A stretch of DNA of 33,920 nt, taken from contig JASLLM010000018.1 in NCBI GenBank assembly GCA_030747035.1, positions 1 through 33,920 on the forward strand, given 5' to 3'. Positions 8,138 through 22,179 of the stretch are shown piece by piece. This DNA is from Alphaproteobacteria bacterium. Its GTDB lineage: Bacteria > Pseudomonadota > Alphaproteobacteria > GCA-2731375. A model generated the notes under the pieces. The model made no database searches and had not been told where the DNA came from. It was given only the letters and a program-made list of their open reading frames with translations. Within the stretch, counting starts at the first letter, position 1, and each line of letters opens with the position of its first letter. A program made the translations under genes and the position numbers.

Positions 8138-9541
8138 ATGAATACCAGTACGCCCATCAATCCCAGCCACGGCCTGGCGGCGGATTTTGCCGCCCGCGTA
8201 CGGGCCATCGCCAAACTGGCCTTGCCGGTCACCGTGGCCCGGACCGGCATGTTGGTCATGGTCATCGCCGATGTGGCGATGACCGGCCATTTCAACAGCA
8301 CGGAGCTGGCATATTATGGCCTGGGCCAGGCGGTATACATGGTTTGCATGTTGATCGGCGTCGGCATGCTGGTGGGTACGGCGGTGCTATGCGCCCAGGC
8401 GGTCGGCGCCGACAGCCTGTCCGAATGCGGCGTGATCTGGCGCGTCTCGGCCCTACACGCCCTGGCCCTTGGCGCCTTGTTCGCTGGCCTTGCCCAGGGC
8501 GGCGGCCATTTTTATCAACTGTTCGGGTACGAAGCCGGGCTGACGCAAGGTGCCGGCCGCGTCCTTGCCATTCTGAACTTCGGCCTGCCGGGACAATTGC
8601 TGTTCACGGCCACGATCCTGTTTTTGGAATCCCTGAACCGGCCCGGCCCCGGCCTGGTCATCATGATCGCGGCCAATATCCTGAATGCGGCACTGAACTG
8701 GTTGCTGATCGGCGGCGATTTCGGCTGGGGCGGCGAAGGCGCGGCCTGGGCCAGCACCATTGTGCGCTGGCTGATCGCCCTGGCGGCGGTGATCTATATC
8801 CTGGGCATGAAGAATGCCGCCACCTACAACGTCGCCGGACCTCTGCATCGGGGCCGGGAGCTGGGGCGAAAACTGCGCCGCCTTGGCTATCCGTTGGGAT
8901 TGGCCCAGGGTTTGGAATCGGCTGCCTTTGCCTCCCTGACCCTGTTTGCCGGTCTGTTAGGCGCGCAGGCGGTCGCCTCGTTTCAAATCGTGATGAACTT
9001 GGTGGCCTTTTGCTTCATGGCGGCCATCGGCGTGGGCACGGCAACGGCGGTGCATGTGGGCCTGGCGATCGGCCGTGGCGAGCAGCGGCAGATGATGCTT
9101 TCAGGCTGGGGCGGCCTCTTCACGATCGCACTGTTCATGGGCGCCATGGCCATCATCATGGCAGTCTTCCCCGCGCATCTGGTGGGTTTGTTTACCTCCG
9201 ACACGGATTTGCTGGTGGTCGCGATGCCGACACTGTTGGTGGCGGCGGCAACCTTGATCACCGACGGTGCCCAGGGGGTGTTGATGGGAGCGTTGCGGGG
9301 CACGGGCGATGTCTGGATCCCATCGGTCCTGCATCTTTGTTCTTTCCTGCTGGTCATGGTGCCATCGGCCTACGGTTTCGCCATTTGGGCCGGGCTGGGC
9401 ACGCCGGGATTGATGATGGGTACATTCTGCGGCGTCACCCTGGCCGCGATCCTGCTGGCGGGGCGCTTCCACGTAATCGCGAAACGGCCCATTCGTCGCC
9501 TTTACGCATGCCTTTTTATGGTCACAATCTGGCCGCAATGA
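8138..9541 (+). CDS. MATE family multidrug/metabolite exporter
   Basis: This is an inner-membrane antiporter of the MATE family (NorM/DinF-like), exporting cationic or amphipathic compounds in exchange for H+ or Na+. About 467 residues with roughly twelve hydrophobic helices are visible in two similar halves. The family's early ADVAMTGHFN-type segment follows the first helix, and a TDGAQGVLMGALRGTGD segment occurs in the second half. The substrate is unknown. The start is uncertain: ATG at 8138, ATG at 8111 and TTG at 8105 are in frame, and none has a convincing Shine-Dalgarno. I prefer 8138 because it leaves an ordinary short polar N-terminus before helix 1. chvI begins 63 bp downstream on the same strand. 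Confidence 0.92.
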   Translation: MNTSTPINPSHGLAADFAARVRAIAKLALPVTVARTGMLVMVIADVAMTGHFNSTELAYYGLGQAVYMVCMLIGVGMLVGTAVLCAQAVGADSLSECGVIWRVSALHALALGALFAGLAQGGGHFYQLFGYEAGLTQGAGRVLAILNFGLPGQLLFTATILFLESLNRPGPGLVIMIAANILNAALNWLLIGGDFGWGGEGAAWASTIVRWLIALAAVIYILGMKNAATYNVAGPLHRGRELGRKLRRLGYPLGLAQGLESAAFASLTLFAGLLGAQAVASFQIVMNLVAFCFMAAIGVGTATAVHVGLAIGRGEQRQMMLSGWGGLFTIALFMGAMAIIMAVFPAHLVGLFTSDTDLLVVAMPTLLVAAATLITDGAQGVLMGALRGTGDVWIPSVLHLCSFLLVMVPSAYGFAIWAGLGTPGLMMGTFCGVTLAAILLAGRFHVIAKRPIRRLYACLFMVTIWPQ

Positions 9542-9604
9542 CGGCTACCTCTGGCACTAGACTGAAAACTGCCTACATCACTAAGCAGAAACAAAGGACA
9601 CAGC

Positions 9605-10300
9605 ATGGCTGCGACCATCACGCTTGTTGATGACGACCGCAATATTTTGACTTCCGTTTCCATCGCGCTGGAGGCGGAAGGCTTCAAGGTCGCGACTTAC
9701 ACCGACAGCCAGGCCGCCCTGCAGGCCATGACGGCCAGGGCGCCTGATCTGGCCGTGCTGGATATCAAGATGCCGGGCATGGACGGCATGGAGCTGTTGA
9801 ACCGTCTGCGCCGGGCCTCCACGGTGCCGGTGATATTCCTGACCTCGAAGGACGAGGAAATCGACGAGATGCTGGGCCTGAAGATGGGCGCCGACGACTA
9901 CATCAGAAAACCGTTTTCCCAACGTTTGCTGATCGAACGTATCCGGGCCGTGCTGCGCCGGGCCGAGGCGGCCGGACGCACCAGCAAAAGCGAGGACGGT
10001 GAATTGCTGGTTCGGGGAGATTTGCGCCTGGACCCGACCCGCCATGAATGCACCTGGCGCGGCGCCGGGGTACAATTGACGGTGACCGAATTCTTGATCT
10101 TGCAGGCCTTGGTCAAGCATCCCGGGCATGTAAAAAGCCGGGATCAGTTGATGGATGCGGCATATGGCGACAATATCTATGTGGATGACCGTACAATCGA
10201 TTCGCATATCAAACGCCTGCGCCGCAAGTTCAAGGCCGCCGATGACGACTTCACGCGCATCGAAACCCTGTACGGTCTCGGCTACCGTTTCCAGGAATAG
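9605..10300 (+). CDS. chvI: OmpR-family response regulator ChvI
   Basis: ChvI is the DNA-binding partner of ChvG, a system that in alphaproteobacteria responds to acid or envelope stress and controls surface polysaccharide, motility and central metabolism genes. The receiver domain (1-120) has the acidic triad at residues 9-11, the phospho-acceptor Asp53 ([11 protein letters not shown]), switch Thr80 and Lys102 (RKPF). The C-terminal winged helix (about 130-230) has [18 protein letters not shown], the [12 protein letters not shown] recognition helix and a closing GLGYRF. AAAGGA at 9593-9598 sets the ATG. The assignment to ChvI rather than another OmpR member rests on the linked ChvG-type kinase and nearby pckA. 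Confidence 0.92.
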
Positions 10301-10345
10301 ACATTTCCATCACGGATTCCGGGGCCAACTGAGGCGGGGGACCCG

Positions 10346-12028
10346 GTGGTAAAGCAGCTTGGTCAGCCCGGGCCGCGTCCAGCGGGTCCGTCGCAAATGC
10401 GTCTTGCCGGCAACGAAGGTCCGGGGCCCGGACGGCGGCGGCGCTTTTCCACCATGACCCTGCGAATTCTGGCGCCGAATGTGCTGGCCCTTGGTGTTCT
10501 GGTTGGCGGCATATTCTATCTGGATCAATATCGCGATGGCCTGATCGACGCCAAGATCGCCGCCCTGCAGACCCAGGCGGAGCTGATCGCCGGCGCTTTG
10601 GGCGAAAGCGCTCTGACCGGGCCTGAGGACCGGCGCCGTCTGGATGGCGAAATTTCCGCCCGCATCATCCGCCGCCTGGCGGTGCCGACCCTGACCCGGG
10701 CCAGATTGTATTTGCCCAGCGGCGGCCTGTTGGCTGATTCCAGGCAACTGGTTGCCGCCGGCAGGCAAGTGCAACTGCGCTATCTGCCGCCCGCCGATCC
10801 AACCGATCATGCCATGCATTTCTTCAACCGAATTTATGATTGGCTGTTGCCGCGCCTGCCACGGGGCCCGGACTTTCCCCCCTACCGGGAACGCCTGGGC
10901 AGCGGTCTGATCGACTATCCGGAACTGACCGTGGCCCTGGGAGGTGAGGTCGGCGGCGCGATCCGCATGTTGCAGGACGAGAGTTTGATTTTGACCGTGG
11001 CGGTGCCGGTGCAGCAGCTGCGCCGGGTGGTCGGGGCCCTGTTGTTGTCCGCCGACAGTGCGGATATCGAGGAAGGGGTGCGCAATGCCCGCCTTGCCAT
11101 ATTGCAGGCATCCGCCCTGGCGTTGACCGTGACTGTGCTGATGTCGTTCTTTTTGGCCGGCACCATTACCGGGCCAGTACGCCGTTTGGCCACGGCCGCG
11201 GACCGGGTGCGGCGCTGGCGGGGCCGGCGGGCACAGATTCCCGACTTGAGCCGCCGGCACGACGAAATCGGCGATTTGAGCGCGGCGCTGCATGAAATGA
11301 CGGAGACGCTTTACGGCCGCCTGGACGCCATCGAGGTGTTCGCCGCGGATGTTGCCCATGAAATCAAGAATCCCCTGACCTCCATGCGCAGCGCCCTGGA
11401 ATCGATCGAGCGCACGGAGGATCCGAAGCAACAGCGGCACCTATTGGCCGTGATGGCGGAGGATGTGCGCCGCATGGATCGTCTGATCAACGATATCTCC
11501 AACGCCAGCCGGATCGATGCCGAACTGGCGCGGGAGGAATCCGAGGCCGTCGATCTGACAAGCCTGCTGCAGACCCTGATATCCGTGCGGCAGTCCGTCG
11601 ACGATGGGCCGGGCCCAAGGTTTGAGCTTCGGGTCGATCCGGACAACCCGATCCTGATCAACGGCCTGCCCGGCCGCCTGGGCCAGGTGGTCGATAACCT
11701 GGTTGGCAATGCCCTGTCGTTCTCGCCAACGGGCGGCAGCATCAGGCTGACCCTGGAACAACAGGGGAAAATAGCGCAATTGACCGTGGAAGATGACGGT
11801 CCGGGCATTCCGCCAGGTCAGGAGGAGGCCATATTCCAGCGTTTCTACAGCCAACGCCCCGCCGGCGAGGCCTTTGGCCGGCATTCCGGGCTGGGCCTGT
11901 CGATCTGCCGGCAGATCATTGAAGCCCATGGCGGCACCATCACGGCAAGAAACCGTTCGGAGCTTGATGGCGGCGGCAATGACCCATCGGGCGGTGCCCG
12001 CTTCACCGTGCACCTGCCTATGCCCTAA
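10346..12028 (+). CDS. chvG: ChvG-type sensor histidine kinase
   Basis: This is the membrane sensor kinase pairing with ChvI 45 bp upstream. The 560 residues show TM1 (about 40-58), a periplasmic sensor region of about 190 residues, TM2 (about 251-272), HAMP (about 273-325), a HisKA domain with phospho-acceptor His338 in VAHEIKNPL, and a HATPase with N-box Asn455 (DNLVGNALSFSP), G1 DDGPGIPP (483-490) and G2 GLGLSI (515-520). The start is GTG at 10346 preceded by a G-rich GAGGCGGGGG; the Pro/Gly/Arg-rich 35-residue N-terminus before TM1 is plausibly cytoplasmic. In rhizobia hprK and PTS genes follow chvG. Here the next gene is convergent, and its end overlaps chvG by 11 bp. Confidence 0.92.
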   Translation: MVKQLGQPGPRPAGPSQMRLAGNEGPGPGRRRRFSTMTLRILAPNVLALGVLVGGIFYLDQYRDGLIDAKIAALQTQAELIAGALGESALTGPEDRRRLDGEISARIIRRLAVPTLTRARLYLPSGGLLADSRQLVAAGRQVQLRYLPPADPTDHAMHFFNRIYDWLLPRLPRGPDFPPYRERLGSGLIDYPELTVALGGEVGGAIRMLQDESLILTVAVPVQQLRRVVGALLLSADSADIEEGVRNARLAILQASALALTVTVLMSFFLAGTITGPVRRLATAADRVRRWRGRRAQIPDLSRRHDEIGDLSAALHEMTETLYGRLDAIEVFAADVAHEIKNPLTSMRSALESIERTEDPKQQRHLLAVMAEDVRRMDRLINDISNASRIDAELAREESEAVDLTSLLQTLISVRQSVDDGPGPRFELRVDPDNPILINGLPGRLGQVVDNLVGNALSFSPTGGSIRLTLEQQGKIAQLTVEDDGPGIPPGQEEAIFQRFYSQRPAGEAFGRHSGLGLSICRQIIEAHGGTITARNRSELDGGGNDPSGGARFTVHLPMP

Positions 12029-15173: not shown

Positions 15174-15848
15174 ATGCTTCTCGCCATAGAAGGCATCGAC
15201 GGCGCCGGCAAGGGAACTTTGTGCCGCGAACTGCTGGCCAGGACCAAGGGGCTGGGCATCCGGGCCGCCGCGCTGTCTTTTCCGCGTTACGAGCAGACCC
15301 AGTTCTCGGACCTGATCGGGCGTTATCTGCGGGGTGAGATGGGCGAAATTGATCAGGTTCCCGTGCGCTATGCCGCGCTGCTGTACGGCGGTGACCGGTT
15401 CGAGAGCCGGCAGCAGTTGCTGGACCTGATCGCGGCCCACGATCTGGTTATCCTGGACCGCTACGTCGCCTCCAACATCGCCTATAACGCCGCCAAGGTC
15501 GCGGCGGACGAGCGGGCGGAGCTGATCGCCTGGATCGAGCGGCTGGAGTTCGATCTGTTCGCCTTGCCACGGCCGGACCTGACATTGCTGTTGGCGACAT
15601 CAACAGCATTGGCGGACCGTCTGGTCGGCCAGAAGGCCGCGCGCAGCTATACGGCAGAGGCGCGCGACCTGCACGAGGCCGACCGCGACTACCTATCCGT
15701 GGTCGCGGAAGTCTACGGCGGCCTGGCGACGGCGGGCGGCGATGCCTGGCTGCGGGTCGAGCCCCTGGACGAGAGTGGCAAGCTGCGCCCGCCGGCCGAG
15801 ATCGCGGCCACGGTCTGGCAACACCCGGGCTTGTCAGCCTTAAGATAG
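15174..15848 (+). CDS. thymidylate kinase-like P-loop nucleotide kinase
   Basis: The protein phosphorylates dTMP or a related nucleoside monophosphate. The 224 residues show the Walker A GIDGAGKGT (7-15), the SFPRYE base-pocket segment (35-40), the LDRY(V)AS motif (94-100) and a lid region with R-S-Y-T (157-160) followed by D-L-H-E-A-D (165-170). That lid pattern differs from the usual proteobacterial Tmk lid and recalls archaeal or other divergent dTMP kinases. The normal alphaproteobacterial tmk sits beside holB, which is not seen here, so this may be a second, specialised kinase. It is divergent from the acyl-CoA dehydrogenase, and its stop overlaps the convergent Lin0512 gene by 9 bp. Confidence 0.82.
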   Translation: MLLAIEGIDGAGKGTLCRELLARTKGLGIRAAALSFPRYEQTQFSDLIGRYLRGEMGEIDQVPVRYAALLYGGDRFESRQQLLDLIAAHDLVILDRYVASNIAYNAAKVAADERAELIAWIERLEFDLFALPRPDLTLLLATSTALADRLVGQKAARSYTAEARDLHEADRDYLSVVAEVYGGLATAGGDAWLRVEPLDESGKLRPPAEIAATVWQHPGLSALR

Positions 15849-16184
15849 ATCCAGACTAACCACGACGGCGGCAGACGCAATCACCGCGACATCGCCAATG
15901 GCCTCGTCGGGCACATCCAGGCCGCCCTTGACCACATCCACCGTGACCGTGCCGTAGGGCAAGGCCGCCTGCACCGCCGCCCGGTCCACTTCATCGGGCT
16001 GTTGCACCCCGATGGTGACATCCACGAACATGGCGGTCCTGGGGTCGACGCCGAGGGTGCGGAGCATGGTCAGCGATGAATGATGCAAGGCATCGTCCAC
16101 GGCGCGCAGGGCGGCTTTGGTGTAATCGCCGCCGTGCAGGTCGTTGCCGGCACCCATTTCCAGAATAACGCGTTTCTTGGTCAT
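15840..16184 (-). CDS. Lin0512 family protein, second tandem copy
   Basis: This is a 114-residue member of the small Lin0512 family, whose function is unknown. It reads KRVILEMGAGNDLHGGDYT at the start, then a helix KAALRAVDDALHHSSL, a VTIGVQQPDEVD segment (about 57-68), LPYGTVTVDVVKGGL, and a hydrophobic end. It is clearly a paralogue of the gene immediately upstream, with the same motifs in the same order. GGGGAG seven bases before the ATG and a 12-bp gap indicate the two are co-transcribed and perhaps form a heteromer. I can see no catalytic signature that defines a reaction. Confidence 0.85.
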   Translation of the reverse strand: MTKKRVILEMGAGNDLHGGDYTKAALRAVDDALHHSSLTMLRTLGVDPRTAMFVDVTIGVQQPDEVDRAAVQAALPYGTVTVDVVKGGLDVPDEAIGDVAVIASAAVVVSLDLS

Positions 16185-16196
16185 GCTGCTGCTCCC

Positions 16197-16538
16197 CTAC
16201 GCCACGTCCAGGTAGACGGCGGCGGCGGCATGGGCCATGACGGTGGCATCGGTGCCTTCCGCGTTGGCAATTTCCAAGCCGCCCTCGACCACCTCCACGG
16301 TACCGGTGCCGTGGGGCAGAACGGCCAGGACGGCGGCCTTGTCCACCTGATCGGGCCGGGGCACGCCAATGGTCACGGCCACCTGCATGGAATCAACATC
16401 CAGATCCAGCGCCTTGGCCACGGTCAAGGAATTGTGCCACAGCGCGTCCTTGAGGGCGCGCACCGCCGCCTTGGTGTAGTCCGTGCCGCGAATATCGGTC
16501 CCCATGCCGATTTCCAGTACCATACGCTTCATCGCCAT
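16197..16538 (-). CDS. Lin0512 family protein, first tandem copy
   Basis: This is a 113-residue Lin0512 family protein, first of a tandem pair. Shared family positions are VLEIGMGTDIRGTDYTKAA (about 7-25), ALWHNSL, VTIGVPRPDQVD (about 56-67) and LPHGTGTVEVVEGGL. The conserved Gly-x-Asp, Asp-Tyr-Thr-Lys and His-x-Ser pattern suggests a conserved binding or active site, but no function has been proved in the family as far as I know. GGAG ten bases upstream supports the first ATG. The 80-bp gap to the divergent GST-like gene should hold its promoter. Confidence 0.85.
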   Translation of the reverse strand: MAMKRMVLEIGMGTDIRGTDYTKAAVRALKDALWHNSLTVAKALDLDVDSMQVAVTIGVPRPDQVDKAAVLAVLPHGTGTVEVVEGGLEIANAEGTDATVMAHAAAAVYLDVA

Positions 16539-16618
16539 ATTGCAATCACTCCATTCCTAGGTCGGCGCAGTGTATACCAGGTTGTCCGATTGTCCGAAAT
16601 CTGCTCTATCATAACGGC

Positions 16619-17434: not shown

Positions 17435-17713
17435 TCAGTGTCTCGATTGCGTCGGCGGCGCCTCGACCGCCAGATCGATATCATCTTCCGCACCCATGGC
17501 GCCGGTGGAGGCCGCGGCCAGGATTTCGCCGGCGGTTGAACCGGCTGACGTCGCGGCATAGGCGGCAAATTCCAGCAAGGTCAGGGCCAGACACTTGGGA
17601 CAAATGTTCTCCCGGGTCATGGCCGACATCAGATCGCCGCTGACCGCATTGTCGATGAGCTGACGGATTTCTTCTTCGTATTCGTCGGCATGCTTGAAGT
17701 CATCGTCGTCCAT
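17435..17713 (-). CDS. small acidic protein with a CxxC motif, function unknown
   Basis: I do not recognise a family. From the ATG at 17713 the protein has 92 residues, with a very acidic N-terminus (DDDDFKHADEYEEE), a single ICPKC pair that could bind zinc or form a disulfide, an Ala-rich helix (about 50-75) and an acidic tail. A start at 17752 would add 13 residues; neither start has a strong ribosome-binding site. It sits in the same direction as, and downstream of, ubiD (87-bp gap), so it may be the last gene of the ubi transcript. Codon use and tight packing against the GST gene favour a real gene, but support is moderate. Confidence 0.55.
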   Translation of the reverse strand: MDDDDFKHADEYEEEIRQLIDNAVSGDLMSAMTRENICPKCLALTLLEFAAYAATSAGSTAGEILAAASTGAMGAEDDIDLAVEAPPTQSRH

Positions 17714-17800
17714 GTCTGCCCCGCCCGTTTCGGTTTGGCCGGTTTCGACCATAGCAGAGTGCGCTGGACATGGCGATGCAGCCGCCCGCCGCCAAAAAGT

Positions 17801-19315
17801 CTATCGCCAGATAGGTTTCCCCGATCCGGGCAGGCCATAGTCGGCCCATTTTTCGCTGACATCGGCGATAACTTCATCGCTCATGCGCAGCCGCTTGCCC
17901 CAAACCCGCTTGCTTTCGGGCGGTATCTTAACCGTGGCATCAAGGCCCAGCTTGCCGCCCAGGCCTTCCTCGGGTGAGGCGAAATCGAGATAATCGATGG
18001 GCGTGCCTTCGACCACCATGCTATCGCGGCCCGGGTCCATGCGGGTGGCGACGGCCCACATCACCTCTTTCCAGTTCCGTGCGTCAATATCGTCATCCAC
18101 GACGATGACCAGCTTGGTATAGGTGAATTGCCGCAGGTAGGACCAGACCGACATCATGATGCGCTTGGCGTGACCGGGATAGGCCTTGCGGATCGAGACC
18201 ACGGCGATGCGGTAGGAGCAGGCCTCGGGCGGCAGCCAGAAATCGACGATTTCGGGAAATTGCAGCCGCAGAATGGGAATATAGAGCTCGTTCAGAGCCA
18301 TGGAAATGACCGCCGGTTCGTCCGGTGGCGGTCCAGTGTAGGTGGAGAGATAAGTCGGCTTGGCCCGCATGGTCACCGCGCTGAGGGTAAAGACCGGAAA
18401 GGGCGCGACCGCGTTCAAATGCCCGGTGTGATCGCCATAGGGGCCTTCGTCGCCGAATTCCTCGTGCGAGACGTGGCCTTCCAGGACGATTTCCGCCTCT
18501 GCTGGCACCTGCAGGGGCACCGTCAGGCAATTCGCCAAACCTATTCTGCGGCCACGCAACAGGCCCGCGAACTGATATTCCGACAGGGTATCGGGCAGCG
18601 GCGTCACCGCCGACAGCATGGTGCAGGGGTCCGCCCCGATCGCGGCCGCCACGGGCATGGGTTCGCCCCGCGCCTCGACCCAGCGGCGGTAATGCTGGGC
18701 CCCGCCGCGATGGGGAAGCCAGCGCATCAGCACCTTGTTGCGGTCGATCACCTGCATCCGGTAGATACCGATGTTGTATTGGTCCTGGGCCTCGCGTCCG
18801 GGCCCCTTGGTGATGACCATGGGCCAGATGATCAGGGGTGCGGGCTCGCCCGGCCAGCAACTGGGGATCGGCAAGCGCGCCAGATCAATGTCGTCGCCCC
18901 TCCAGATTATCTCCTGGCACGGTACGGTCTTGCGCCGCGTCCGTTTTGGCTGCATTGCCCCGACGCGCTTTAACAGCGGCATGGCGTCGGCGACCTCTTT
19001 CAGGCTGCCGGGCAGGGCCGGTTGATGCAGAGTGGCCAGCATTTCACCGACTTGGCGCAGCTCGTCCGCCTTCCGGCCCAAGGCCATGGCAACCCGGTCG
19101 ACGGTACCGAAAAGATTGATCAGCACCGGTGTGTCATAGCTCTGGCCATCGGGACCAACGGGATTTTCAAACAGCGCCGCCGGCCCGTTTTCGGCCAGCA
19201 GGCGGGTCTGGATCTCAGTCATTTCCAGGGCGGTTGACACCGGCGTCTTGATGCGCACCAGTTGCTTCGAACGTTCCAGCCGTTCGATGAATTTGCCCAG
19301 GGTAAGATCGATCAT
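17801..19315 (-). CDS. ubiD: UbiD, polyprenyl-4-hydroxybenzoate decarboxylase
   Basis: UbiD removes the carboxyl group from 3-polyprenyl-4-hydroxybenzoate using prenylated FMN supplied by UbiX. The 504 residues are near the length of the E. coli enzyme. Family segments are easily read: QYNIGIYRMQ (about 179-188), EGPYGDHTGH (290-299), YTGPPPDEPAV, FPEIVDFWLPPEACSYR, GHAKRIMMSVWS and TPIDYLDFASP. The start at 19315 leaves an 8-bp gap to ubiV. The apparent longer start at 19351 would overlap ubiV by 28 bp and adds a non-family N-terminus. Its place as the last of ubiT-U-V-D ties decarboxylation to oxygen-independent ubiquinone synthesis. No ubiX is present in the window. Confidence 0.95.
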   Translation of the reverse strand: MIDLTLGKFIERLERSKQLVRIKTPVSTALEMTEIQTRLLAENGPAALFENPVGPDGQSYDTPVLINLFGTVDRVAMALGRKADELRQVGEMLATLHQPALPGSLKEVADAMPLLKRVGAMQPKRTRRKTVPCQEIIWRGDDIDLARLPIPSCWPGEPAPLIIWPMVITKGPGREAQDQYNIGIYRMQVIDRNKVLMRWLPHRGGAQHYRRWVEARGEPMPVAAAIGADPCTMLSAVTPLPDTLSEYQFAGLLRGRRIGLANCLTVPLQVPAEAEIVLEGHVSHEEFGDEGPYGDHTGHLNAVAPFPVFTLSAVTMRAKPTYLSTYTGPPPDEPAVISMALNELYIPILRLQFPEIVDFWLPPEACSYRIAVVSIRKAYPGHAKRIMMSVWSYLRQFTYTKLVIVVDDDIDARNWKEVMWAVATRMDPGRDSMVVEGTPIDYLDFASPEEGLGGKLGLDATVKIPPESKRVWGKRLRMSDEVIADVSEKWADYGLPGSGKPIWR

Positions 19316-19323
19316 GGCCTGCC

Positions 19324-20262
19324 TTATTCCGCGGCCGCCCCATCGACCCAAAGCCGGCCTTCCCGGCCGTGCAGATAGCCGTTGGCCAGGGGGACATCGC
19401 CGATCAGTTCATCTAATCGCGCCTGCGCCTCTTCCACCGCCATGCTTTCGTCCAAGACGCCCCGAAACACGGCCGCCACCTGCACCATGTCGCAGCTATG
19501 GGGCCACAGGCGGAAGCAATCGATGCCGGCGGCTTGCAGCAGCGGCAGTTCGGCGAGCAGGCTGCAATAGGTATCCGACAGGGTCTGCGTGCCGTTGATG
19601 GCCAGGAACGGTTCCTCGTCCAGGGTTTCGATGGTTAGGCCGTCAGGATCGTTGGCACAGACGAACTGACAGCCATCCTTATGCAGATCGTGGGCCCGGG
19701 CGTGATAGCAGCGAGCCGAAATCGCCAGGGGCAGGCGGCCGAACACCTGCACTTCCAACGACACCGACCGGCCCGCATCCGTTTGCCCCAGATCCTGCAA
19801 AGCGCTCAGGGACAGCTCCGCCGGCAGCGAGACCCGGAAGGCGCCGCGCTGCGCCAGATAGGCGATGGTGCCTTCGTTGTAGGCGTTGACGAACGGGCCG
19901 ATAACATGGCGCCGGCCGGCCAGCAGCGAAGCGGTGGAAATATCATTGGCTTCGAACAGCAGGTCCGGATCGGCGATGGACTGCCGGATCTCCTCCATCT
20001 CCTCGCCCGTCATGATCAGGGCCAGGGTGGAGAGCGCCACTTCCTTGCCGGCGGCCGTCAGACGCTCATGCACGGCGGGCAAGTGGGGCAGAATGAAGGG
20101 CCGCCGCTTGGCGCACACCACCTCGCCCAGATAGACCGTGTCGATGTCGGCTTCATCGGCGATACGGAAATAGAAATCGCGCCAGCGTTCCGCGTCCCAG
20201 TGAAACAGCACCGGCCCCAGGGCGAGTTTGGGGTTGGTTTTCGTGCTCTTCCCGCCCTTCAT
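19324..20262 (-). CDS. ubiV: UbiV, oxygen-independent ubiquinone hydroxylation protein
   Basis: UbiV is a U32-peptidase-family protein that works as a complex with UbiU to hydroxylate ubiquinone precursors without O2. The 312 residues have the cysteines expected to hold a [4Fe-4S] cluster: Cys50 (LGEVVCAKRRP), Cys185 (SARCYHARAHD), Cys198 and Cys202 (KDGCQFVC). The 185-198-202 spacing matches that of E. coli UbiV (180-193-197, from memory). The start overlaps the ubiU stop by 4 bp (ATGA), indicating translational coupling. Confidence 0.95.
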   Translation of the reverse strand: MKGGKSTKTNPKLALGPVLFHWDAERWRDFYFRIADEADIDTVYLGEVVCAKRRPFILPHLPAVHERLTAAGKEVALSTLALIMTGEEMEEIRQSIADPDLLFEANDISTASLLAGRRHVIGPFVNAYNEGTIAYLAQRGAFRVSLPAELSLSALQDLGQTDAGRSVSLEVQVFGRLPLAISARCYHARAHDLHKDGCQFVCANDPDGLTIETLDEEPFLAINGTQTLSDTYCSLLAELPLLQAAGIDCFRLWPHSCDMVQVAAVFRGVLDESMAVEEAQARLDELIGDVPLANGYLHGREGRLWVDGAAAE

Positions 20263-21275
20263 CGCCAGGCCCTTTGATAGGCGCCGGAGGTCTCCCGCTG
20301 GCCTTCGGTAACCTCGCCGAGTTGCGGCATTTCGGGGATCGGCTCGCCGCGCCGGCAGGCATCGACGGCGGCGCGGAAGGCGGCGACCACCTGTGCCGTA
20401 TAGGCCCGACCGCGCTGGCGGCCCTCGATCTTCAGAGCGGAAACGCCGGCCGCCATCAGATCCGGCAAGATGGGCAGAACGTTCAGCGAGGTCGGCGCCT
20501 CGAACAGGTAGGAGGCGCGGTCATCGGCAACGAAGCGGCCCTTGCACAGGGTCGGATAGCCGGCGGCATCATTTTGCTGAAACACATTGATGGTGAAATC
20601 ACCCAGCCGCGAGACCATCTCCGAGCCCCGCTCCAGATACCGGACGTGGGAGGCGGGGGAACAAACGCCGGTGATATTGGGTGACTTGCCCGTGACATAG
20701 GATGACAGCAGGCAGCGCCCTTCGGCCATGGGACACATGCCGCCAAAGGCAAAAACCTCCGTCTCCACCGGGATGCGGCTGTTCAGATCGGCGATATCCT
20801 CCACCGTCAGCACCCGGGGCAGCACCACCCGGCGCACGCCGAAGGCCTCGTGATAAAAGCGGATCGCCTCGGCGTTGGAGGCGGAGGCCTGCACTGATAG
20901 ATGCAGGCGCAGACCCGGGTGCTGCTTCGAGGCATAGTCGAGAATGCCGATATCGGCCAGGATCACCGCGTCGACGCCAAGATCGGCGGCACGGTCAATG
21001 GCGCGGTGCCAGGCCTCGGGCGCGCCGGCGCGGGGAAAGGTATTGATGGCGACAAAAACCTTGCAGTCGCGGGCGTGAGCATATGTCAAACCTACTTCCA
21101 GCTCTTCGGGGCTGAAATTCAGTCCGGGAAAGTTGCGCGCATTGGTCTCGTCACGAAAGCCGAGATAGACAGCCTCGGCCCCGGCATCGACCGCGGCTCG
21201 GAGCGCCGCCGGGGTACCCGCGGGGCAGATCAGTTCCAGATCGCCGGGGGTCGTGTTGGCATTGCCTTGGGCCAT
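20259..21275 (-). CDS. ubiU: UbiU, oxygen-independent ubiquinone hydroxylation protein
   Basis: UbiU is the U32-family partner of UbiV in oxygen-independent ubiquinone biosynthesis. The 338 residues begin a TIM-like fold with LELICPAGTPAALRAAVDAG (13-32). They contain the four cluster cysteines Cys181, Cys188, Cys205 and Cys244. The spacings 7, 17 and 39 equal those of E. coli UbiU (169, 176, 193, 232, from memory), which separates it from the RlhA and TrhP U32 paralogues. The gene lies 2 bp after the ubiT stop and overlaps ubiV by 4 bp, so the three are one coupled unit. Confidence 0.96.
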   Translation of the reverse strand: MAQGNANTTPGDLELICPAGTPAALRAAVDAGAEAVYLGFRDETNARNFPGLNFSPEELEVGLTYAHARDCKVFVAINTFPRAGAPEAWHRAIDRAADLGVDAVILADIGILDYASKQHPGLRLHLSVQASASNAEAIRFYHEAFGVRRVVLPRVLTVEDIADLNSRIPVETEVFAFGGMCPMAEGRCLLSSYVTGKSPNITGVCSPASHVRYLERGSEMVSRLGDFTINVFQQNDAAGYPTLCKGRFVADDRASYLFEAPTSLNVLPILPDLMAAGVSALKIEGRQRGRAYTAQVVAAFRAAVDACRRGEPIPEMPQLGEVTEGQRETSGAYQRAWR

Positions 21276-21277
21276 GC

Positions 21278-22015
21278 TTACTCCGGTGCTGTTGCGGTGG
21301 ACGGTTGCGTGGTGCGGCGGCGCCGTGAGCTCTTGCCACGCGACATGGTTTGCCGCAGATGGTCAACGGCGGCCGCTTGCGCCGCCAGCCGCTCCATGGC
21401 CGGCTGCAACAAGGCATCCTGGAGCAAGGCCATATCGCTGCCGGCGCGGCGGGCCAGCCGCCGCAGACGCTTGGCGGCGCGCCGTGCGGGCCGCGCCAAT
21501 GGACCGGCGCGGACGAGGATGTCATCGATGATATCGATCTCCTCACCATCAACCGCGTTGCGCAACGCTACCACCGCCTCCGTATCGCCCTCGATCACCA
21601 GGGCCCTGGAAAAGAACAGGGCATCGCCGTCGACCCGGCCTTCCAACAGATCGATCAGGGCCAGCAGCGAGCCGCGAATGGTGGCCCCGACCTCGCCGGC
21701 GTCCGCCGCGCGGGCGACGCTCAACCTTGGTTGCCTGACATCCGCCCGCAGCAGAAACCGGATCGGCAAATCGATGGGGTCAATCAGAAAGACCGTATTC
21801 GCGTAAGGTCCCAGACGCTCGAACATACCGGGGTGCTGGCTGGCGACCGCCGCCATGGCGGCACGCAATATCGGCTGTAGCAGCAGCCGTGGCACCGCGG
21901 GCGGAATTGGCGACAACAGCAATCCACCCAACAGCACGGGCGAGAATGGCGGCACCATGCCGCTCCGCCCAGCGCCGGCGGCGCCGTCTTCCGCGCGATC
22001 CTGAAAGTCATTCAT
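21278..22015 (-). CDS. ubiT: UbiT, SCP2-domain accessory factor for ubiquinone synthesis
   Basis: UbiT is a lipid-binding SCP2-domain protein thought to present polyprenylated intermediates to the anaerobic Ubi proteins. The 245 residues have a hydrophobic Pro-rich N-terminal segment, an SCP2-like core (about 65-155), with FLIDPIDLPIRFLL and ALFFSRALVIEGDTEAVVALRNAVDG as the recognisable parts, and a basic Ser/Arg/Thr-rich tail. The tail after about residue 200 appears longer than in enterobacterial UbiT. The start is either ATG 22015 or ATG 22033; neither has a clear Shine-Dalgarno. First gene of ubiT-U-V-D. I see no TTGAT-N4-ATCAA FNR site in the 164 bp shared with the divergent amidase gene. 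Confidence 0.9.
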   Translation of the reverse strand: MNDFQDRAEDGAAGAGRSGMVPPFSPVLLGGLLLSPIPPAVPRLLLQPILRAAMAAVASQHPGMFERLGPYANTVFLIDPIDLPIRFLLRADVRQPRLSVARAADAGEVGATIRGSLLALIDLLEGRVDGDALFFSRALVIEGDTEAVVALRNAVDGEEIDIIDDILVRAGPLARPARRAAKRLRRLARRAGSDMALLQDALLQPAMERLAAQAAAVDHLRQTMSRGKSSRRRRTTQPSTATAPE

Positions 22016-22179
22016 AACCGGGGATTTTAGCATACGGCTCGGCGGCGCTCCACGCCGTGGCCCCGCCGGGGCTGCGGCAAAGTGCCGCGATAGCGCGCCG
22101 CTGTCCCAAGGTTTGGGCTGACGGGAAGGAGCAATCGTGCTGCAATGTCTTGGCTGCCAGTTTCAGGGGAGGACAGATC

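Follow-up and report, generated by a model that had tools for sequence, protein, structure and literature searches.

Why would an alphaproteobacterium keep, side by side and on the same strand, two paralogous members of Lin0512, a protein family without known function, and do the two products work together? The question arises from the window analyzed here, by which we mean the whole stretch of 33,920 nucleotides in which an earlier note had described the two genes, proposed that their products form a heteromer, and suggested, from the adjoining thymidylate kinase, a link to nucleotide or cofactor metabolism. The explanation that we favor, with a probability of roughly 60%, is that the two proteins, LinB and LinA, constitute an obligate two-subunit Lin0512 hetero-oligomer in which one subunit is degenerate.

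Both genes are present as open reading frames on the minus strand in the list for the window (Table 1). Their products pass the curated cut-offs of PF09585 (23.4 bits; scores in Table 1) and of TIGR02058 (56.85 bits; LinB 74.6, LinA 68.2), and PF09585 is the sole Pfam family that either of them matched at E-values up to 1; the description of the genes as neighboring, co-directional Lin0512 paralogues is thus confirmed. No sigma-70-like site was found in the 80-bp stretch upstream of linB, and a promoter and terminator scan at the linB-linA pair found neither; no RNA families were found within the window, nor was there a match to phage-protein families. Further along the window (17801-22033, minus strand), genes for UbiD, two peptidase U32 proteins and an SCP2 protein follow one another, a row that resembles the oxygen-independent ubiquinone genes ubiT-ubiU-ubiV. 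A 105-amino-acid protein encoded at 17435-17752 (minus strand), with no significant family match, is conserved in the neighborhood of the pair at five loci of this genus.

Table 1. Features of the linB-linA locus, in coordinates of the window
Feature	Coordinates	Strand	Basis
linB: upstream, Arg-type Lin0512 paralogue, 113 aa, GMGTDIRGTDYTKAA	16197..16538	-	ORF; PF09585 113.8 bits; B clade in tree; Arg17 in 29/30, Gln in 1/30 B rows
linA: downstream, His-type Lin0512 paralogue, 114 aa, GAGNDLHGGDYTKAA	15840..16184	-	ORF; PF09585 116.5 bits; AlphaFold2 pLDDT 93.5, pTM 0.86; 3c8l Z 16.7
12-bp gap from linB stop to linA start; probable two-gene operon	16185..16196	-	Gaps of -11 to +14 bp in 34 measured pairs, -4 (overlap) in 14 of them
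Divergent intergenic stretch of 80 bp, 5' of both linB and a GST-like gene; presumed promoter region	16539..16618	.	ORF coordinates
Thymidylate kinase, M. tuberculosis type, convergent with linA (9-bp overlap); judged outside the system	15174..15848	+	Thymidylate_kin match; adjacency limited to the genus

The pair is widely conserved among the alphaproteobacteria that carry the family. PF09585 was detected in 20 of 116 relatives searched, with exactly two copies in all 20; a draw of the class gave 34 positives among 387 genomes (30 with two copies, four with one), and a draw of the phylum 18 among 299, all of them Alphaproteobacteria (12 with two copies, counting one genome, G587, that holds a whole and a truncated copy, and six with one). 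These three samples overlap, and combined they contain 44 genomes with a true pair, that is, one gene of LinA type (A) and one of LinB type (B). The two are adjacent and co-directional in 43 of the 44, always in the order B then A and, where the gap was measured, at the short spacing given in Table 1; in the only separated case (G194) they lie inside two different contigs and both are retained. None of the 44 genomes had A alone or B alone. Among the 42 sequence-distinct adjacent pairs, every one of which reads B then A, the same site holds Arg in 41 B proteins and Gln in one, and His in 30 A proteins and Tyr in 12. Ten genomes of the class have a single copy, which belongs to other types with an intact G-x-G-x-D-x-H: one resembling that of Azospirillum (G325, G386) and a second found in one family, f164, and in G294. 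When neighbors within 6 kb of 41 loci were clustered, no neighbor widely common across families was found; SDR and ABC genes recur near pairs at scattered distances, and the remaining recurrences were mostly confined to the genus. The B-A pair is an old, fixed unit and no local accident, and the conservation on which the earlier note had made its proposal depend is what we observed.

The 30 A and 30 B proteins each fall on one side of a branch in the 104-row tree, with SH-aLRT support of 95 for B and just 76% for the A clade on its own. A branch of support 93 unites the two groups, beside the single-copy proteins of f164, which retain Asp-x-His, and this topology fits a single duplication giving rise to A and B. 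The identity of A to B inside one genome averages 44%. The pairwise distances of the two mirror each other (r 0.82, with none of 2000 permutations as high and the highest at 0.41), a correlation that is partly due to shared species descent. In 11 genomes of the genus, dN/dS was 0.082 for A and 0.075 for B, values that indicate equal purifying selection on the two; hence, B is not decaying.

The two classes differ at several positions (counts per class refer to 30 A and 30 B rows, family-wide counts to the 104 rows). The GxGxDxHG stretch near the N-terminus, the motif of the Lin0512 family description, is complete in LinA of the window, and LinB reads GMGTDIRG. At position 17, A proteins have His (18) or Tyr (12) and B proteins have Arg (29) or Gln (1); at position 15, Asp is found in 28/30 A rows and 17/30 B rows, with Ser in 13/30 of the latter. 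Residues fixed in class A are Asn14 and Gln61 (each in most A proteins) and Ser36 (30/30), and those fixed in class B are Arg17, Trp34 (28/30), Asn36 (30/30) and Thr100 (30/30). Both classes keep Asp20, Thr22, Arg27, Ser37, Pro76, Gly78, Gly87 and Gly88 in all or nearly all rows. Of the positions listed as conserved in the earlier note, Gly11/Gly13, Asp20-Tyr21-Thr22-Lys23 and His35-x-Ser37 are all found in both window proteins, and Asp20, Thr22 and Ser37 hold widely across the 104 rows; however, Tyr21 is variable across the family (Val, Pro, His and others), and Lys23 is less constant, with Gln or Glu in its place in some B proteins and Asn or Arg in some other proteins. Such a combination of residues is the pattern of a working subunit paired with a degenerate yet constrained one, although Tyr replaces His17 in 12/30 A proteins, so that a catalytic His is not universal in A. 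Compared with the single-copy Lin0512 proteins (PF09585, TIGR02058; e.g., 3c8l), the pair is alike in its full-length PF09585 match, in the fold of A and in the Gly, Asp20, Thr22 and Gly-Gly positions, but differs in consisting of two obligate classes, one of which (B) is without the His of GxGxDxHG. In addition, a stretch present in Lin0512 proteins of Bacilli and Azospirillum (SGIFLEDKND) is missing from the alphaproteobacterial pair.

A structural search, as the earlier note had proposed, was made with LinA. The AlphaFold2 model of this protein was confident (pLDDT 93.5, pTM 0.86) and matched the solved structure 3c8l from Nostoc punctiforme, whose title reads "FtsZ-like protein of unknown function" (Z 16.7 and rmsd 2.1 across 112 residues, with a Foldseek E of 1e-10, A being the only subunit compared); a literature search found no paper naming the Lin0512 family or 3c8l. 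The best solved match after 3c8l was the C-terminal domain of FtsZ (2vaw; rmsd 2.6 over 90 residues) with a Z of 8.2, near the level that the tool flags as possibly common, and weak Foldseek matches were obtained to Bacillus chorismate mutase (AroH, E 0.0097), IspF (0.021) and RidA-type trimers (0.032), with TM-scores of about 0.3-0.4 and no Pfam match. Two likenesses seen by eye were rejected on comparison of profiles. For FtsZ, where a GxG...AA...AI stretch looked alike, the hhalign probability was 0.5% against the PF12327 region (19 narrow alphaproteobacterial rows) with no Pfam match, and for IspF, whose consensus likewise opens with GxG-x-D-x-H, it was 2.5% (15 narrow alphaproteobacterial rows) with no PF02542 match for A or B; the genome of the window encodes a separate IspF of its own. 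Likewise, neither LinA nor LinB matched the RidA/YjgF family in Pfam at E up to 1. Because the comparisons with the FtsZ_C and IspF profiles gave no support, we consider that only a fold class is common to Lin0512 and these proteins; LinA is, moreover, without the GTPase domain of FtsZ.

A model of the two subunits together was less informative. The B-A chain was read through its natural stop and modeled with seven closely related rows of the same genus, single A and B rows being misaligned on the fused query and hence left out, and B-A being the only two-subunit combination modeled; as a single chain under these settings it was mediocre (pLDDT 73.8, pTM 0.65). Foldseek matched it to cyanuric acid hydrolases (E 5e-5), but with poor global superposition (TM about 0.2, rmsd about 16), which amounts to no global match, and with no sequence family match. 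Cyanuric acid hydrolase/barbiturase is described as a "Toblerone" fold of concatenated YjgF-like units (PMC3758960), and it exemplifies how one enzyme can be built from repeated units of this fold. The heteromer claim of the earlier note is supported indirectly, by the presence of one A and one B in 44/44 genomes, their fixed order, the one duplication, the mirrored divergence and the equal constraint, but not physically, given the pTM of 0.65.

Under the explanation that we favor, a single-copy Lin0512 gene would have duplicated once within Alphaproteobacteria to give a small linB-linA operon. Each of the two subunits would be an alpha/beta domain standing alone, in the fold class that also holds chorismate mutase, RidA, IspF and the C-terminal domain of FtsZ. 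The active sites of enzymes in this class lie between subunits. LinA retains the ancestral acidic site, with Asp15 accompanied by His17 or Tyr17, and LinB retains the other conserved residues of the shell (Asp20, Thr22, Arg27 and Ser37, with the P-x-G loop and Gly-Gly hairpin) together with Arg17, often without Asp15. Since this shell is kept but position 17 is Arg and Asp15 is often lost, LinB would serve as a degenerate partner, completing or tuning the site of LinA. Physical association of LinA and LinB in a heteromer appears likely; the odds that A is the working subunit are about even, and the evidence is similarly balanced on whether the pair is a small-molecule enzyme rather than a sensor. 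A point against an obligate pair is that one copy suffices in the single-copy branch.

What the pair might act on can be approached through the genomic context of its single-copy relatives, and here an alternative has to be weighed that concerns the chemistry and is compatible with the heteromer. It holds that Lin0512 proteins are accessory factors of the thiamine-diphosphate enzymes of acetoin or acetolactate metabolism, where they would bind, repair or clear a C4 hydroxyketone or a side product, and that the alphaproteobacterial pair has left the operon. The family reaches Bacilli, Alphaproteobacteria, anaerobes and Asgard archaea, and a scan of named genomes gave 80 Lin0512 loci. In eight of eight loci, taken from Deltaproteobacteria-labelled, Thermosediminibacterales and Siculibacillus records, a gene for a dehydrogenase E1-alpha lies closely 3' of Lin0512 on the same strand and is followed by E1-beta, in the company of E2 (7/8), an AcoX-like NAD-kinase-fold protein (7/8), a sigma-54 activator (4/8) and a LipB-LipA fusion (3/8). 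Wider draws detected the family in 21/247 genomes of one phylum (that of G684; 20 above cut-off), 16/199 of a second (that of G686) and 36/195 of the Asgard phylum, always as a single copy except in Sifarchaeum, which has four. Among 56 fetched loci from other phyla, which partly repeat places of the eight-locus set (L260/L110, L270/L106, L293/L112), 25 have the E1-alpha cluster in range (15/16 in the phylum of G686, 9/19 in that of G684, 1/1 in Siculibacillus and 0/20 in Asgard archaea); E1-alpha starts at most 300 bp downstream of Lin0512, co-directionally, in 19 of the 56, and an AcoX-like protein and a sigma-54 activator occur in 23 and 22 of the 56, respectively.

Because of the AcoX-type company, we read these E1 proteins as acetoin, not pyruvate, dehydrogenases; by NCBIfam, E1-alpha falls just under the nearest pyruvate dehydrogenase cut-off and E1-beta passes a subfamily named for pyruvate dehydrogenase. 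One plasmid record annotates the AcoX-like protein as "acetoin catabolism protein X", and AcoX is described as typical of acetoin dehydrogenase clusters and without known function (PMC3543383). Clusters of this kind, as known from Pelobacter carbinolicus (aco clusters with AcoX; PMC3543383), hold a single-copy Lin0512 gene in several phyla. In f164, which is the sister group of the pair, 3/6 loci have an acetolactate synthase (about 820 bits against a cut-off of 509) upstream on the same strand and 2/6 have an IlvD-like dehydratase downstream, but these loci come nearly all from one genus. Against the accessory-factor proposal, no acetoin- or acetolactate-type neighbor was found beside the single copies of Bacilli, Azospirillum or Asgard archaea, and, unlike the aco-type clusters, the alphaproteobacterial pairs, including that of the window, have no flanking aco genes; the exceptions are two pairs (L173, L178) with thiamine-diphosphate enzymes of other types nearby. 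In Bacilli no constant neighbor was found; a MarR-type gene precedes Lin0512 in one Listeria record. Acetoin/acetolactate chemistry is, in short, a recurring but not universal context of Lin0512, and we regard the accessory-factor proposal as rather unlikely, though it offers the only recurrent clue to the chemistry.

By the context of the single-copy relatives, it is conceivable but doubtful that the substrate of the pair belongs to the acetoin/acetolactate/diacetyl group. More speculative still is a joint reading in which Lin0512 would be an unrecognized enzyme or carrier of acetoin/acetolactate/diacetyl chemistry that serves thiamine-diphosphate enzymes and whose gene directly precedes acetoin dehydrogenase in anaerobes from several phyla, and of which Alphaproteobacteria would have made an obligate heteromer, one subunit swapping the catalytic Asp/His for a fixed Arg. 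A family without known function gains two testable leads: an obligate pair of active and degenerate subunits, and a recurrent place in acetoin dehydrogenase operons.

Several details of the single-copy loci deserve mention in their own right. In aco-linked and other anaerobe copies (L253-L267, L291-L306), the HHSSLT stretch is often replaced by SRSCLCGL, whose two cysteines are possibly a metal or redox site. A DUF6506 protein, for which a literature search found no paper naming it, is encoded 3' of AcoX in some of the aco-linked operons (e.g., L111:14767-15072). Five loci of the G684 phylum (L258 and four more) have a RACo-type corrinoid activation protein encoded downstream of Lin0512.

A second alternative, which bears directly on the heteromer, is that A and B form two separate homo-oligomers with related but distinct ligands, e.g., two sensors or enzymes of one pathway, held together by co-regulation without contact. 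The mean A/B identity of only 44%, the fact that each class has fixed residues of its own and the single-copy relatives in other phyla, which need no partner, all speak for it. Nevertheless, not one of the 44 genomes has retained only one class, and both A and B survive even where they are unlinked (G194). Hence, we consider separate homo-oligomers improbable and prefer the obligate hetero-oligomer.

The weakest proposal, that the pair works with the neighboring thymidylate kinase in nucleotide or cofactor metabolism, is very improbable: the two are physically adjacent in 9/11 genomes of the genus, but the kinase gene is encoded on the other strand, shares 9 bp with linA tail to tail, is not adjacent in the three other pair-bearing genera of the family (G011, G012, G013) nor in six pair-bearing genomes of other families, and encodes the sole thymidylate kinase detected in each of the 14 family genomes. 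Specifically, the kinase is on another contig in the two remaining genomes of the genus (G001, G008) and in all three other genera, and the six genomes of other families have a different kinase, unlinked to the pair. The kinase looks like a housekeeping enzyme, since only one was detected per family genome (14/14), and its adjacency is local gene order, not function. The link to nucleotide metabolism suggested in the earlier note was not sustained, the context pointing instead to acetoin/acetolactate chemistry. The "divergent" character of the kinase was upheld: it is a Thymidylate_kin protein (68.9 bits against a cut-off of 27), is closest to the M. tuberculosis enzyme (E 1.6e-33), and, with a score of 181.7, falls just under the matching NCBIfam cut-off of 193. 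The lone kinase in all 14 family genomes (G001-G013 and the window) is of this low-scoring type (63 to 76 bits), as opposed to the usual alphaproteobacterial one, which scored 142 to 163 bits in ten other alphaproteobacteria searched; judged from these scores, the M. tuberculosis-type kinase is an apparent whole-family replacement of a housekeeping enzyme.

Finally, tandem Lin0512 copies also occur outside the alphaproteobacterial pair. Halobacillus and Aquibacillus have tandem copies, both with an intact GxGxDxHG (L080, L087, L090, L096 and L104, near 9500-10360). In Candidatus Sifarchaeum (L109:1445-3396), four Lin0512 genes stand in tandem as two alternating pairs, a Tyr-type followed by a His-type gene, an arrangement that represents a second, separate origin of pairing.
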